Below, piece by piece: positions 30,809-36,300 of a stretch of DNA of 64,000 nt. The stretch covers positions 1 to 64,000 of the forward strand of contig NZ_VFSD01000011.1 in NCBI RefSeq assembly GCF_014332515.1, written 5' to 3'. The notes below the pieces were generated by a model. It had not been told where the DNA came from. It ran no database searches and was given only the letters and a program-made list of their open reading frames with translations. The DNA comes from Pontibacter beigongshangensis (GTDB taxonomy: Bacteria; Bacteroidota; Bacteroidia; Cytophagales; Hymenobacteraceae). Position numbers and translations under genes: made by a program. Position 1 is the stretch's first letter, and each line of letters opens with the position of its first letter.

Positions 30809-31255
30809 TTAGGCAAGACAGCGTCCAAGTTTAGACAGAAGGCGGTTACCACGTGAAACAGTGGCTTCGGGTTCCGCACAATTTCCGGAGCCGCAGGCAC
30901 ATACCTGCACCACCCTTACAGCCGGATACATAACAGAAGTAGCCACGCAGCGGGGACTATATTCACCGTTCAGCTCCAGTGCCACCTCTATCCGGATGCC
31001 TTGCAGCCTGTAGGCAGCGGGCAGGTTGTCTGTTGTTACCAAACCGCCCTGAATCTGGCCCACAAAGCGGTTGCTCTGCAGGCCGGACGCCTGGTTATCG
31101 TTTAGCAGGCGCAACACGTACCAGCCGGTTTCGCAGTCAGCCCCTACCACCTCTGCCTGCACACAAGCAACAGGCACCGGTTCCTCCCCCGAACAACTGA
31201 TTGCCAGCAGCGACAAGCAGAGGAAGATAAGCGCAAGGTAAAAGGCAGGTTTCAT
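30809..31255 (-). CDS. hypothetical Cys-containing lipoprotein
   Basis: A 148-residue lipoprotein. MKPAFYLALIFLCLSLLAISC is a signal peptide with lipobox (Cys21), cut here as LLAISC. The mature part has paired cysteines (CVQAEVVGADC, VQVCACGSGNC, RCLA at the end) suggesting disulfide bonds. No family was recognised. The inner ATG at 31255 is chosen because a frame extension to 31333 would bury the signal peptide. It lies 100 bases after another lipoprotein gene on the same strand. Confidence 0.65.
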   Translation of the reverse strand: MKPAFYLALIFLCLSLLAISCSGEEPVPVACVQAEVVGADCETGWYVLRLLNDNQASGLQSNRFVGQIQGGLVTTDNLPAAYRLQGIRIEVALELNGEYSPRCVATSVMYPAVRVVQVCACGSGNCAEPEATVSRGNRLLSKLGRCLA

Positions 31256-31355: not shown

Positions 31356-31808
31356 TTATCGGTACAGGTAATACGAATCGGTAAAAACTGCTTTCGGGTC
31401 CTGGCCGGTAAACGAGTTCTTCAGCACCAGTTTCTTGTCCTTTGCTTCTTTTATCTCGAAGTAACCCACCCAGGCGCCCGAACTGAGCACGATAGTGCCC
31501 GGGTTATAGTGGTAATTTACTTTATAGGCACTGCGGTACGTTTTGTTGTAATAGTCTAACCGCATCAGAAAAGCGCTGTCGGCCCTGAACTCAAAGTAAT
31601 CGGTGGGTTTGCCCTCGTAGTTTTCGGAGGTGCAGTTACGGTCTCGGCAGAGCTCCGACTCGATCCGCTCTATGTTCCACCTGCCGTGCAGGGTCGTCTG
31701 CATTTCTTCGGCCAGCAGCGCCGGCCTCACATCTTCGCTCTCTAAGCATCCTGAAAGCGTCAGAAATGAAATAATAACCACGGGGAGCCAATAAGTAGTT
31801 TTATTCAT
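31356..31808 (-). CDS. lipocalin-like lipoprotein, hypothetical
   Basis: A 150-residue lipoprotein with lipobox LSGC (Cys20). The segment LHGRWNIERIESELC followed by repeated short beta strands (DYFEFRADSAFLMRL, TIVLSSGAW, KKLVLKNSF) resembles the lipocalin-like small lipoproteins common in Bacteroidota (G-x-W near the N-terminus). The fold is inferred. The start at 31808 is the ATG directly before the signal peptide. Likely outer-membrane or periplasmic. Confidence 0.65.
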   Translation of the reverse strand: MNKTTYWLPVVIISFLTLSGCLESEDVRPALLAEEMQTTLHGRWNIERIESELCRDRNCTSENYEGKPTDYFEFRADSAFLMRLDYYNKTYRSAYKVNYHYNPGTIVLSSGAWVGYFEIKEAKDKKLVLKNSFTGQDPKAVFTDSYYLYR

Positions 31809-31945: not shown

Positions 31946-32059
31946 TCAGCCTGCCCGCAAGACCGAATAAAGCAGGAGAGCCAACAGCAGGAACCAGCCC
32001 AGCAGGTTTATGTTCGCGGCCTCTGCCAGTGCGGCAAAAGAGTTAAGGATCGTTTTCAT
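31946..32059 (-). CDS. putative small membrane protein
   Basis: A 37-codon frame, MKTILNSFAALAEAANINLL..., with one strong membrane helix (about residues 19-33) and a short basic end. It starts 73 bases after the stop of the beta-barrel protein gene on the same strand, so it could be the last gene of that operon. No homologue is known to me, and no good ribosome binding site is visible; it is a candidate only. Confidence 0.35.
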   Translation of the reverse strand: MKTILNSFAALAEAANINLLGWFLLLALLLYSVLRAG

Positions 32060-32132
32060 GGCTGTGAACGCATTACTTACTACTTATACGATTCAGTTTC
32101 GGGCCTACTGGTTGCAAGGCCCGAAGAAAATT

Positions 32133-33776
32133 TTATTTTTCGCCCTGGCCCAGCAGGTACTGCACGCCCAGGTTCACGCCAATGGAGTAGGGTTTGCCTT
32201 GGGGTGCCAGGGCCTGGTCGGGGTTGGCCAGCATAGAGCTCAGGTAGCTGCGGAACTCCGGCCCTGCCACGATCATCACCGACTCGGATATTTGCTTGCC
32301 CACCCCCATGCCTATGTTGGTAGAGAACTGCACTTTCCGGAAAGGCGACACTTCCTCCTTGTTGTCGTAGCTGAAAGACGGCACTTTATCGGAGCCTGTC
32401 GTGATTCTGCTTTCTGTCAGGAAGTTGGCTGCCAGGGCCCCGGAGGCATACCAGCGCCAGCCCCTGTTGCCGATCTTGCCTTCGTACTGCAGGCCGAGCG
32501 GCACCGATATCTGCCGGTACTGGTAGTTTACATAAAACGGGCTTGTCTGCTCCACGGCAATCGAATCAGGAGAGAACCCGTTTGTAAGCGATGGCATAAA
32601 GATGGTAGAAACAAGTTCATAAGGCTCGCGGGTGGTAGGCTTAAACCAGAACTGCCTGAAAATAAAACTGGTCTTGGTGCGGGCCGAGTTTTGGATAAAC
32701 CCGATCCCCGACAGGAGCTTCAGCTTTTTGGTCAGCCGGAAACCTGCACGCACTTCCATGCCATAAGAGAATGCCGCGTCTGTATTATCATCGTATTCCT
32801 CACGGGCAGCTTCCATATTTCTGGCTGTCGAAACATCGGCTTGCGGGCCGAAAGTTGCAAAGCTGTTATAGCGTACGGCTGGCATCATCTGGTCGGGCAG
32901 GCCTATGTTCTGGTTAAAGTAAGATGGCCCGGAAGCCATTCCCACGCTCCACCTACTATTGGCAGCACTGGCAACTACCTGCTCTTTTTTAGCTGTTTTG
33001 CCAAGCGATTGCTGCAGGGCATCCTCCTTCTTCTGGTCAGTAGCAGGCATGGCTGCCAATGTCTTGTACTGTGGCTCCCCGAGCTCCTTAATCGTTTTTG
33101 GCAGCAGGACTTCCTGCTCCTCCGGCAACTTCTGCCGCACCACCACCGACTGCATTTTTGGCCGGGCACTTTCTGTATCGGGTATGGCTGGCTGTTGTAC
33201 TTTTTCCTGTGCCTCCGCAGGCTCGCCTGTACCACCAGTGGCGGCATACGCAGGCGGATTTGTGCTACCAGGCTGCTCCAGGTATGGCTGCTGCACCTCT
33301 TGCTTTGGTGTTTCTGCTGTTGCCGCCCTGGCAGGGGCTGCACCGGCCACACGGCTATCAGAACCGGCAGGCAGGGGTTTTGCGGTACGCGTGGCCGGCT
33401 GTGCGGAGGCTATGGCTTCTGCCCCTGCTGGCGCTGCGGTCTGGCTGCTTTTTGCTGGCTCTGAGGCTTCTGCGGGTGCAGCCTGCGTATTGGCATTAGC
33501 TGCAACTTGTTGCGCTGTGGCTGCTACAGGTTGCCCGGCCTGGTTACCCACCTGGTAGTACACCAAAGCACCGGCCAGCAGTAGCAGCACAAGACAAGCG
33601 GCAGCCAGTTGCCTGTACATAACGAACCGCTCCTTGTACTGGCGGTTTTCATGTACAGTAAGCTCATGGTCTATGCGCGACCAAAGGTCCGGAGCAGGCG
33701 AAGCCTCAGCGTCGTGCATCCGGCTACGGAACTGCTCTTCCAGTGATCCCCGCTCCTGTTTATTTGCTGATGACAT
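32133..33776 (-). CDS. envelope-spanning protein: anti-sigma-like N-terminus, membrane helix, long linker, C-terminal beta-barrel
   Basis: A 547-residue protein starting MSSANKQERG. Residues 1-55 are cytoplasmic-like and carry a PDLWSRIDHEL segment typical of the N-termini of proteins encoded after ECF sigma genes. One membrane helix lies at about 56-75. Residues 76-270 are Ala/Pro/Gln/Glu-rich and probably extended. Residues 275-547 are beta-rich, alternate polar and aromatic residues and end in a barrel-like strand (YSIGVNLGVQYLLGQGEK), as in outer-membrane beta-barrel family proteins. Its start lies 17 bases inside the sigma gene, implying coupled translation. A role in linking outer-membrane state to the sigma factor is inference. 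Confidence 0.8.
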   Translation of the reverse strand: MSSANKQERGSLEEQFRSRMHDAEASPAPDLWSRIDHELTVHENRQYKERFVMYRQLAAACLVLLLLAGALVYYQVGNQAGQPVAATAQQVAANANTQAAPAEASEPAKSSQTAAPAGAEAIASAQPATRTAKPLPAGSDSRVAGAAPARAATAETPKQEVQQPYLEQPGSTNPPAYAATGGTGEPAEAQEKVQQPAIPDTESARPKMQSVVVRQKLPEEQEVLLPKTIKELGEPQYKTLAAMPATDQKKEDALQQSLGKTAKKEQVVASAANSRWSVGMASGPSYFNQNIGLPDQMMPAVRYNSFATFGPQADVSTARNMEAAREEYDDNTDAAFSYGMEVRAGFRLTKKLKLLSGIGFIQNSARTKTSFIFRQFWFKPTTREPYELVSTIFMPSLTNGFSPDSIAVEQTSPFYVNYQYRQISVPLGLQYEGKIGNRGWRWYASGALAANFLTESRITTGSDKVPSFSYDNKEEVSPFRKVQFSTNIGMGVGKQISESVMIVAGPEFRSYLSSMLANPDQALAPQGKPYSIGVNLGVQYLLGQGEK

Positions 33777-34338
33777 GCTCTTTAAAGTTATGGTCCTGCC
33801 GTGCCAGCATTTGCTGTAATATGACCCTGGCACGTGAGTACTGCGATTTTGAAGTTCCTTCCGAAATACCCATCATTTCACCTATCTCCTTATGGTTGTA
33901 GCCCTCTATGGCGTACAAGTTAAACACCATCCGGTAGCGTGGGGCCAGGCTTTGGATCATGCTCATGAGCTCCTCCAGGCTATAGCCGGTCAGGTTGCAG
34001 GAGTCGGAGCTGATGCTGGCAACTTCCTCTGTTTCATGTGAAACCGTGAGCAGCGACTTCTGCCGCAAGTGTTTCAGGGCCGTGTTGATCATGATGCGCC
34101 TGATCCAGAACTCCAACGGACAATCGCGCTTAAACTTCTCGATGTTGGCAAACACCTTCACAAACCCCTCCTGCATGATATCTTCTGCCTCAAAATTGGT
34201 AGGTGCGTAACGCAGGCAAACCGCCATCATCTTTTTAGAGTACAGGTCATATAGGTCCCGTTGCACTTCCCGCTTGCCGGCAATGCACCCTTCAATGAGT
34301 TTCTCCTCGTCTGACTTTGGCCTGGTAAAAAGTTTCAA
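33760..34338 (-). CDS. RNA polymerase sigma factor, ECF subfamily
   Basis: A 192-residue ECF sigma factor: region 2 (about 27-95, with NFEAEDIMQEGFVKVFANIEKF) and region 4 (about 130-185, with YAIEGYNHKEIGEMMGISEGTSKSQYSRARVIL). The start codon is TTG; the next ATG is 36 codons in and would cut region 2. Its last 17 bases overlap the start of the membrane/beta-barrel gene, the usual arrangement of sigma and regulator. The upstream 350 bases hold no other gene. Confidence 0.92.
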   Translation of the reverse strand: MKLFTRPKSDEEKLIEGCIAGKREVQRDLYDLYSKKMMAVCLRYAPTNFEAEDIMQEGFVKVFANIEKFKRDCPLEFWIRRIMINTALKHLRQKSLLTVSHETEEVASISSDSCNLTGYSLEELMSMIQSLAPRYRMVFNLYAIEGYNHKEIGEMMGISEGTSKSQYSRARVILQQMLARQDHNFKEHVISK

Positions 34339-34685
34339 AAGCTACCTTCCTTACGACTTACACCCCTATGAGTCCTGTTCGCGACAAAGGGTTGCAAGCG
34401 AATTAAAAAAATATTCAACAGAATCCGGATTCTATGCCTGGAGTGGCATCAATAGCAGGATACACAAAGATATGAAAACGATAGGGACAACAATAATAAA
34501 TTTTGTCTTTAATTCATATTATCCTTAGGAATTATCCTATTAAACAGTTCTTATCAATTACATGATCTGATGATAATAAGGGAGATGAAACTAAAAATGC
34601 CAGACCTCATATCAGAGATCCGGCATTTTTAGTTTAGTTGCTGAAATTACAGAGTGAGTTACAGCAGGCCAGGTAGCAACTCAGG
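34339..34685. other. gap upstream of the ECF sigma gene
   Basis: AT-rich, no gene. It contains the terminator at 34588-34635 of the DUF1232 transcript's far side and presumably the sigma promoter, which could not be identified. Confidence 0.5.
34588..34635. terminator. terminator-like hairpin
   Basis: AAACTAAAAATGCC and GGCATTTTTAGTTT are exact inverted repeats, flanked by A- and T-runs. On the minus strand no gene ends to its right except the DUF1232 gene (stop at 34686), which it probably terminates. Confidence 0.75.
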
Positions 34686-35565: not shown

Positions 35566-36300
35566 CTACGCATTCCAGATAGCCCAAGCGGCTTCGGCCT
35601 GTTTGTAGAGCATGGCCAGCCCGTTGGTGACCTGGGCACCGGCAGCAGCGCCTTTTTGCATAAACTGCGTTTGCTCCGGGTTGTAGACCAGGTCGTAGAG
35701 GTAGTGCTGTGGCGTAAGCGACTCGTATGGCAGCGGCGGACAGGCATCGGTGGCCGGGTACATGCCGAGCGGAGTGGTGTTAATGATGAGCTTGTGCGTC
35801 GTCAGCAGCCCTGCCTGCACCTCCTCGTAGCTGATGGCAGACGGACCGGCGCTTCGCGATACTTGCTTGTGCGCAATGCCTAGGGCATCGAGGGCGGCTA
35901 TCACGGCTTTGGCGGCACCGCCTGTACCCAGCACCAGCGCCCTCCCCTCCTGCCCCACGGGGTAAAACTCCTCCAGCGTTTGCCTGAAGCCGATAAAGTC
36001 GGTATTGTAGCCTTTTGTCTTTCCGTTTTCTACCCGAATGGTGTTTACGGCTCCAATGGCAGCAGCGGCGGCATCCATCTCGTCCAGAAAAGGTATGACT
36101 ACTTCTTTGTATGGCACCGTTACGTTCAGCCCCGCCAGTTCCGGCTCACGCATGAGCAGTTCCGGAAACTCCGCGATCTGGTCCAGTTCATAAAGATCGT
36201 AAACAGCACCTTGAATGCCTTCGCGCTCAAACTTACCGGTAAAGTACCGCTTCGAAAAGGAGTGCCCTAACTTACGCCCGATCAACCCGAATTTTCTCAT
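35566..36300 (-). CDS. aroE: shikimate dehydrogenase
   Basis: Reduces 3-dehydroshikimate to shikimate with NADPH in aromatic amino acid synthesis. The 244-residue protein, compact like other Bacteroidota AroE, has the substrate site GHSFSKRYF near the N-terminus, NVTVPYKE with catalytic Lys65, the nucleotide-binding LVLGTGGAAKAV and the C-terminal NGLAMLYKQAEAAWAIW. It is monocistronic with repeat-filled flanks. Confidence 0.95.
   Translation of the reverse strand: MRKFGLIGRKLGHSFSKRYFTGKFEREGIQGAVYDLYELDQIAEFPELLMREPELAGLNVTVPYKEVVIPFLDEMDAAAAAIGAVNTIRVENGKTKGYNTDFIGFRQTLEEFYPVGQEGRALVLGTGGAAKAVIAALDALGIAHKQVSRSAGPSAISYEEVQAGLLTTHKLIINTTPLGMYPATDACPPLPYESLTPQHYLYDLVYNPEQTQFMQKGAAAGAQVTNGLAMLYKQAEAAWAIWNA

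Follow-up and report, generated by a model that had tools for sequence, protein, structure and literature searches.

Results

We analysed a stretch of 64,000 nucleotides (nt) from Pontibacter beigongshangensis (contig NZ_VFSD01000011.1, positions 1 to 64,000; hereafter the window) around a gene pair on its minus strand, in which a sigma factor gene of the extracytoplasmic function (ECF) type overlaps the gene of a 547-residue partner. The partner is a real and well-conserved member of the recently described Dma/Reo family of anti-sigma factors. A sequence-only reading of the stretch had given the length of the partner and an overlap of 17 bases, and both hold, positions 33760-33776 (17 nt) being common to the two genes. 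The pair and the predicted parts of the partner are:

33760..34338, minus strand: ECF sigma factor, 192 amino acids (aa), TTG start, matching Pfam models of sigma regions 2 and 4 and immediately preceding the partner in relatives
32133..33776, minus strand: Dma/Reo-type anti-sigma factor (the partner), 547 aa, sharing 17 nt with the sigma gene
33618..33776, minus strand: predicted cytoplasmic N-terminal domain, residues 1-53, with a motif of the P.PDLW.RID..L type, from conservation and hhalign
33552..33617, minus strand: predicted inner-membrane helix, about residues 54-75, from a by-eye reading of the sequence
32958..33545, minus strand: Ala/Pro/Gln-rich tether, about residues 78-273, from composition and length in orthologues
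32136..32957, minus strand: C-terminal domain of outer-membrane barrel type, residues 274-547, from PF13568 and hhalign

The sigma product matches Sigma70_r2 (2.7e-14) and Sigma70_r4_2 (1e-16) in Pfam, its ECF assignment being a generic ECF match; the sigma factors of the Dma family are placed in group ECF21. For comparison we used a set of 50 Pontibacter genomes, the own genome included, from which the 31 best-scoring loci (L009-L039) were taken; L009 and L011 are one contig, leaving 30 distinct loci. The sigma gene lies directly upstream of the partner in all of them (31/31, or 30/30 distinct) and starts with TTG in 31/31, and the overlap is again 17 nt in 27 of the 31 (26/30 without L011), the other four overlapping by 20 or 23 nt. 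The overlap and the TTG start are thus kept in relatives, and neither looks like chance. The pair is also present in one further genome (L164), and for the remaining 19 Pontibacter genomes the comparison covered the downstream side of the partner.

Within the partner, the sequence-only reading had placed a sigma-binding-like cytoplasmic start, one inner-membrane helix, a linker of about 195 residues rich in Ala, Pro and Gln, and a C-terminal outer-membrane barrel, a layout that our comparisons support in substance. The linker (residues 78-274) measures 197 aa with 44% Ala, Pro and Gln, a composition from which we predict disorder. Mean identity of the 30 orthologues to the window partner is 63% over residues 1-75, 17% over the linker and 51% over the C-terminal domain, and the linker length ranges from 181 to 233 aa (mean 209.9, standard deviation 10.5). 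Conserved ends joined by a linker that is free in sequence yet steady in length are what is expected of a tether. The helix at about residues 54-75 was placed by eye, and an otherwise poor AlphaFold2 model contains a helix at residues 31-80, with block values of the predicted local distance difference test (pLDDT) of 61-77 for residues 51-80.

The barrel assignment is carried by family matches. Alone, the C-terminus of the window partner matches OMP_b-brl_2 (PF13568) with an E value of 4.4e-5 and 24.1 bits, and PF13568 is found at E<=0.01 in 29 of the 30 orthologues, the best at 8.6e-12. A profile of 15 diverse C-terminal domains aligned to nine OMP_b-brl_2 proteins of the own genome with an hhalign probability of 93.3%, against 0.1% for a sigma profile compared with the same proteins. 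Outer-membrane proteins usually end in Phe, a common signal for outer-membrane insertion, and a terminal Phe is present in many fused homologues from other families. Several results weigh against a barrel and would suit a membrane-anchored anti-sigma factor that ends in a soluble beta domain in the periplasm, so that nothing reaches the outer membrane: the window partner alone stays below the Pfam gathering cut-off for PF13568 (24.1 vs 27 bits); its end (...GQGEK) is not aromatic, unlike that of many homologues, and its genus is likewise without the terminal Phe; a profile search of the PDB gave no solved relative, only three chance-level hits with E values of 0.12-0.41; and AlphaFold reached mean pLDDT values of 31.8 (whole chain) and 27.1 (barrel by itself), from a two-sequence alignment that makes the models uninformative on the barrel. 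Because of this last point the assignment rests on sequence homology. With PF13568 in nearly all orthologues, the profile match to the own-genome proteins and the terminal Phe elsewhere in the family, we consider a soluble C-terminus very improbable and a domain of the outer-membrane barrel type supported.

The same architecture has been described in gut Bacteroidales. According to PMC9308784 (2022), the anti-sigma factor of Phocaeicola vulgatus probably crosses the periplasm and ends in an outer-membrane barrel, as predicted there, and strains with an interrupted anti-sigma gene are described as letting the sigma factor transcribe its regulon. PMC13088901 (2026) sets out how Dma proteins are laid out, among them Dma2 of Bacteroides thetaiotaomicron, restricts them to Bacteroidota and connects them with vesicles; there, das2 is raised by 4.54 log2 in a dma2 mutant and hypervesiculation needs das2. 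With this architecture in print, the bridging idea of the sequence-only reading is therefore not new. Literature searches, most subscription papers lying outside their scope, returned no description of a Dma/Reo-type system in Hymenobacteraceae and nothing on a small membrane protein together with an anti-sigma factor in Bacteroidota; for anti-sigma factors in Pontibacter, the one match appears to concern a salt-tolerance locus. The Dma family itself is said to have been named in a 2024 PNAS paper by Pardue.

A connection to these systems at the level of sequence runs through nigD genes, which belong to the EcfO-Reo regulon according to PMC13114119. A search for NigD_C (PF17415) in 395 genomes of the class gave matches in 27. 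Among 30 nigD loci looked at, eight also carry a sigma factor of the window type; in five of these the adjoining protein has 409-441 aa and matches the broader profile A4 of the window family (E values of 3.4e-15 to 5e-34 for the small set of open reading frames searched), and in the other three (L149-L151) the anti-sigma factor is different and shorter, L151 having a weak N-terminal match (2.5e-4). From the five nigD-linked homologues an alignment (A9) was built, with L149-L151 left out. N-terminal profiles of the window family aligned to A9 with hhalign probabilities of 96.9% (profile A1) and 98.2% (A4), the reversed control, run for A4 only, giving 0.7%, which argues for a sigma-binding-like start in the window partner; whole profiles aligned over the barrel as well, with 94.9%. 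Because they are linked to nigD, and going by PMC13114119, we read the A9 genes as probable Reo/Dma1 genes. The own genome gave no match to NigD_C, the hallmark of the Dma1/Reo regulon, which stands on the negative side of the comparison; the regulon therefore differs from that of Dma1/Reo.

The partner (profile P0001) is matched in 204 of 204 Hymenobacteraceae genomes at E<=0.001; in its more distant genera often just one end of the protein is covered. The single named relative found, Pontibacter qinzhouensis, has 71% identity over the best segment. A4 matched 123 of 395 genomes of the phylum, single-end and weak matches counted, and in distant fused relatives the sigma gene is adjacent wherever the locus reached far enough. 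Loci L059-L114 hold repeats of the same genomes and give no number of species. Weak phylum matches of profile A1 in L070, L074, L078 and L080 have no sigma pair, look like chance matches to the linker and were rejected.

The own genome holds two further arrangements. A second fused pair (L053, C6:95000-102000) consists of a sigma gene at 4771-4142 and a partner of about 446 aa at 4164-2824, both minus, matched by the N-terminal and barrel profiles. In a split version (L052, C1:189000-197000; sigma 5321-4788, anti-sigma 4774-3926, barrel-type protein 3915-2776, all minus) the anti-sigma factor with its linker is one gene, followed by a separate barrel-type protein with its own signal peptide. 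This protein reached 33.9 bits for PF13568 in one scan and matched no family at E<=0.1 when taken from its own signal peptide. Similar split layouts occur in L065, L072 and L075, the second protein matching an outer-membrane protein profile in L072 and L075.

Upstream of the sigma gene, between its partner and the following small reading frame, and at a distant gene, a recurring promoter-like motif was found:

34367..34397, minus strand: TTGCAACC-N18-TCATA, predicted to be an ECF-type promoter for the sigma gene, its -10 element ending 28 nt before the TTG start
32087..32117, minus strand: second copy of the motif, with one mismatch (TCGTA), between the partner stop and the small reading frame, ending 27 nt before the latter
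C3:108830-109336 of the own genome, outside the window (L218/L232): P0004, a small membrane-protein gene with a third motif copy upstream

TGCAACC is present in 30/30 Pontibacter sigma upstream regions, and CAACC-N18-TCATA is exact in 19 of the 30, the others having variants such as TCTTA or TCATG; in the own genome the sigma promoter copy matches exactly. The second copy is found before the small reading frame in 27 of 50 Pontibacter genomes in the strict form, for which shuffling gave one hit in 20000 stretches (the shuffle control covering the strict form only), and in 48 of 50 in the loose form (missing in L017 and L174), at a spacing to the start (27 nt) similar to that of the sigma gene (28 nt). 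P0004 is present in 39 of the 50 genomes, and among the best 30, which were examined for the motif, the third copy is strict in 18 and loose in 28 loci, with 1 and 16 hits in 6000 shuffles; its product gave no Pfam match at E<=0.1. The window sigma factor would read all three copies. In other genera of the family the loose motif precedes the sigma gene in 7 of 9 loci (absent in L158 and L160, whose sigma starts were assumed; without shuffles). Among the paralogues of the own genome it lies before the sigma gene of the split version and is missing in front of the sigma gene of the second fused pair (also without shuffles).

Genome-wide hit counts of the motif stand on the negative side for the proposed sigma/anti-sigma pair. 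In eight genomes 39 hits were obtained vs 19 for a reversed control; 18 of the 39 belong to the promoters of the sigma gene, the small frame and P0004, which leaves 21, no more than chance would give, and in the own genome, with one mismatch allowed, there are 18 hits vs 13 in the control. A distant regulon from motif hits alone was accordingly rejected. A phylum-wide promoter was rejected as well, the loose motif preceding the sigma gene in 3 of the 20 loci from beyond the family (with two of these nearly identical) vs 33 of 6000 shuffles, and the motif, in its loose form, stands before none of 8 nigD genes.

The unit behind the pair comprises:

31946..32059, minus strand: 37-aa membrane peptide, related to a lipoprotein signal region, ending in TGA at the position of the lipobox Cys of relatives
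31356..31808, minus strand: lipocalin-like lipoprotein, 150 aa from an inner ATG, PF13648 at 22.1 bits, just under the cut-off of 22.4
30809..31255, minus strand: second small lipoprotein, of a motif family of 42 Pontibacter loci, the window one included

The sequence-only reading had named a putative 37-residue membrane protein behind the partner. As a coding unit it stood; it is more aptly seen as the stand-alone kin of a signal region from a lipoprotein. The open reading frame (ORF) starts 73 nt past the partner stop, and a core of N-L-x-G-W-Y-x-L-L-x-L-L follows the partner directly in 47 of 50 Pontibacter genomes (missing in L029, L171 and L174). This count belongs to a widened pattern; the shuffle control belongs to a narrower first pattern, which was found in 28/31 Pontibacter loci, 0/11 loci of other genera, 7/6200 shuffles and 1/43 reverse strands. 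Conservation of the G, the W and the other positions that the pattern fixes follows from the way the search was built. Of the 47 copies, 36 are stand-alone ORFs of <=60 codons, 24 of these without a lipobox, and 11 are longer, eight of them lipoproteins of 141-182 aa led by the core; in L013 and L014 the core-led lipoprotein resembles, by eye, the next gene of the window.

Whether such a frame is read as protein was judged from the ratio of nonsynonymous to synonymous differences (pN/pS), uncorrected, over the 22-codon core and averaged over pairs. In frame it is 0.37 over all 47 copies and 0.42 when just the 24 stand-alone ones lacking a lipobox are taken, and in the other reading frames 0.73-0.76 and 1.72-1.77 (0.76 and 1.77 for the 24). 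Because the in-frame ratio lies below that of the other frames, we regard the small ORF as coding and constrained. On a tree built from 31 Pontibacter rows and an outgroup (32 rows), the well-supported branches require the stand-alone state to have changed four times or more and the long-lipoprotein state five times or more, and all 7 members of one fully supported group are stand-alone. These comparisons indicate that the ORF is a real coding unit, akin to a lipoprotein signal region, and that it switches between stand-alone and lipoprotein-leading forms. The stop codons of the 36 stand-alone copies are TAA in 26, TGA in 5 and TAG in 5, and with most of them ending in TAA a reading of the TGA as Cys was set aside.

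It could be argued that the ORF is nothing but functionless DNA left from a decayed lipoprotein. This would account for the TGA where relatives have the lipobox Cys, for the earlier stop, a TAA, in the nearest relative (L009), for the frequent shifts of state on the tree and for the absence of the core in 3 of 50 genomes; it is at odds with the ratio of 0.42 in precisely those copies that stand alone without a lipobox, with the uniform stand-alone state of the supported group and with the ORF having its own promoter copy, and we consider it unlikely. Quite doubtful, in our view, is the far-reaching reading in which the peptide would be a working small membrane protein of the sigma regulon, a signal region turned gene, with repeated detachment from or attachment to lipoproteins, acting as an inner-membrane feedback part of the circuit, where it may for example stabilise the helix of the anti-sigma factor or occupy a protease that would otherwise cut it.

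Relatives of the lipocalin-like lipoprotein were seen in 25 Pontibacter loci with a crude motif that misses the window copy itself. For the second small lipoprotein no convincing family match was obtained from a query that began one codon later, at 31252. Downstream of the partner in L037-L039, L164 and two more Pontibacter loci lies a Cys-rich lipoprotein led by the small-ORF core. The version in these six other Pontibacter aligned to NigD with an hhalign probability of 90.5%, vs 0.8% reversed and 22.9% and 16.9% for other lipoproteins; the two of six members that were scanned gave no Pfam NigD match. On the other side of the pair, upstream of the sigma gene at 35566-36300, the window carries a gene with a shikimate dehydrogenase N-terminal domain, and a similar-looking protein is encoded, also upstream of the sigma gene, in a locus of another genus (L155), which suggests old synteny.

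Discussion

We propose a sigma/anti-sigma pair of the Dma (Reo) kind, in which one chain would bridge both membranes and free the sigma factor when its barrel is disturbed, and we put the probability of this reading at roughly 87%. The partner would be made at the inner membrane, with residues 1-53 staying in the cytoplasm and holding the ECF sigma factor, the single helix anchoring the chain, a tether of about 200 residues crossing the periplasm and the C-terminal barrel residing in the outer membrane. The state of the barrel would then most likely set whether residues 1-53 keep the sigma factor: disturbance, by failed assembly or outer-membrane damage, would lead to cutting or rearrangement of the chain and to release. 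Other membrane anti-sigma factors release their sigma factor by proteolysis, and proteolysis is probably needed here as well. Freed sigma factor would transcribe its own gene pair, the second unit just behind it with the tiny membrane peptide and the small lipoproteins, and, at a distance, at least the small membrane-protein gene P0004.

The pairing could also be merely operonic, the partner being an outer-membrane protein that keeps its anchor uncleaved and has no regulatory effect on its neighbour. A mere anchor would have no need for residues 1-75 to be the best conserved part of the protein (63%), sigma genes are adjacent in 30/30 Pontibacter loci and in distant fused relatives with enough locus, and published homologues act as anti-sigma factors; we find this alternative barely plausible. 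The proposed sigma/anti-sigma pair shares with the Dma family the N-terminal domain, single helix, long tether, barrel (by homology) and adjacent ECF sigma factor.

Compared with Dma1-Das1 and Dma2-Das2 of B. thetaiotaomicron, the anti-sigma domain, helix, long disordered tether and C-terminal barrel follow in the same order, Dma1 and Dma2 also have an adjacent ECF sigma factor, and loss of Dma2 induces the sigma gene, just as the promoter in the window predicts self-induction. The window chain differs in length (547 aa vs 409-441 aa in the nigD-linked Bacteroidales homologues), in the genes that follow it, which are other ones and have a promoter copy to themselves, and in the lack of a NigD_C match in the own genome. 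EcfO-Reo of B. fragilis and P. vulgatus, which is thought to sense outer-membrane stress according to PMC9308784 and PMC13114119, resembles it in that its anti-sigma factor is predicted to cross the periplasm and to carry an outer-membrane barrel; it differs in having nigD genes in its regulon, a feature of the EcfO-Reo/Dma1 subgroup without a match in the own genome, where lipocalin-like and other small lipoproteins are predicted for the window regulon.

A functional parallel is offered by FecA-FecR, in which the state of the outer membrane is passed to a cytoplasmic sigma factor by two proteins, with a TonB-dependent receptor as the sensor. The same flow of information is proposed for the window pair. 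The separate receptor is missing here; instead, a barrel-type domain of about 275 aa that matches OMP_b-brl_2 is fused into the same chain.

Conclusions

To the known family our analysis adds the extent of its conservation, promoters that it likely uses and, behind a promoter of this type too, a tiny membrane peptide that is conserved. A sensor design of gut Bacteroides would be carried into free-living Hymenobacteraceae, with a match in every one of 204 genomes, and a concrete list of a predicted promoter and targets is provided for the sigma factor. The conserved peptide, now a gene and now the signal region of a lipoprotein, is in itself an evolutionary oddity.

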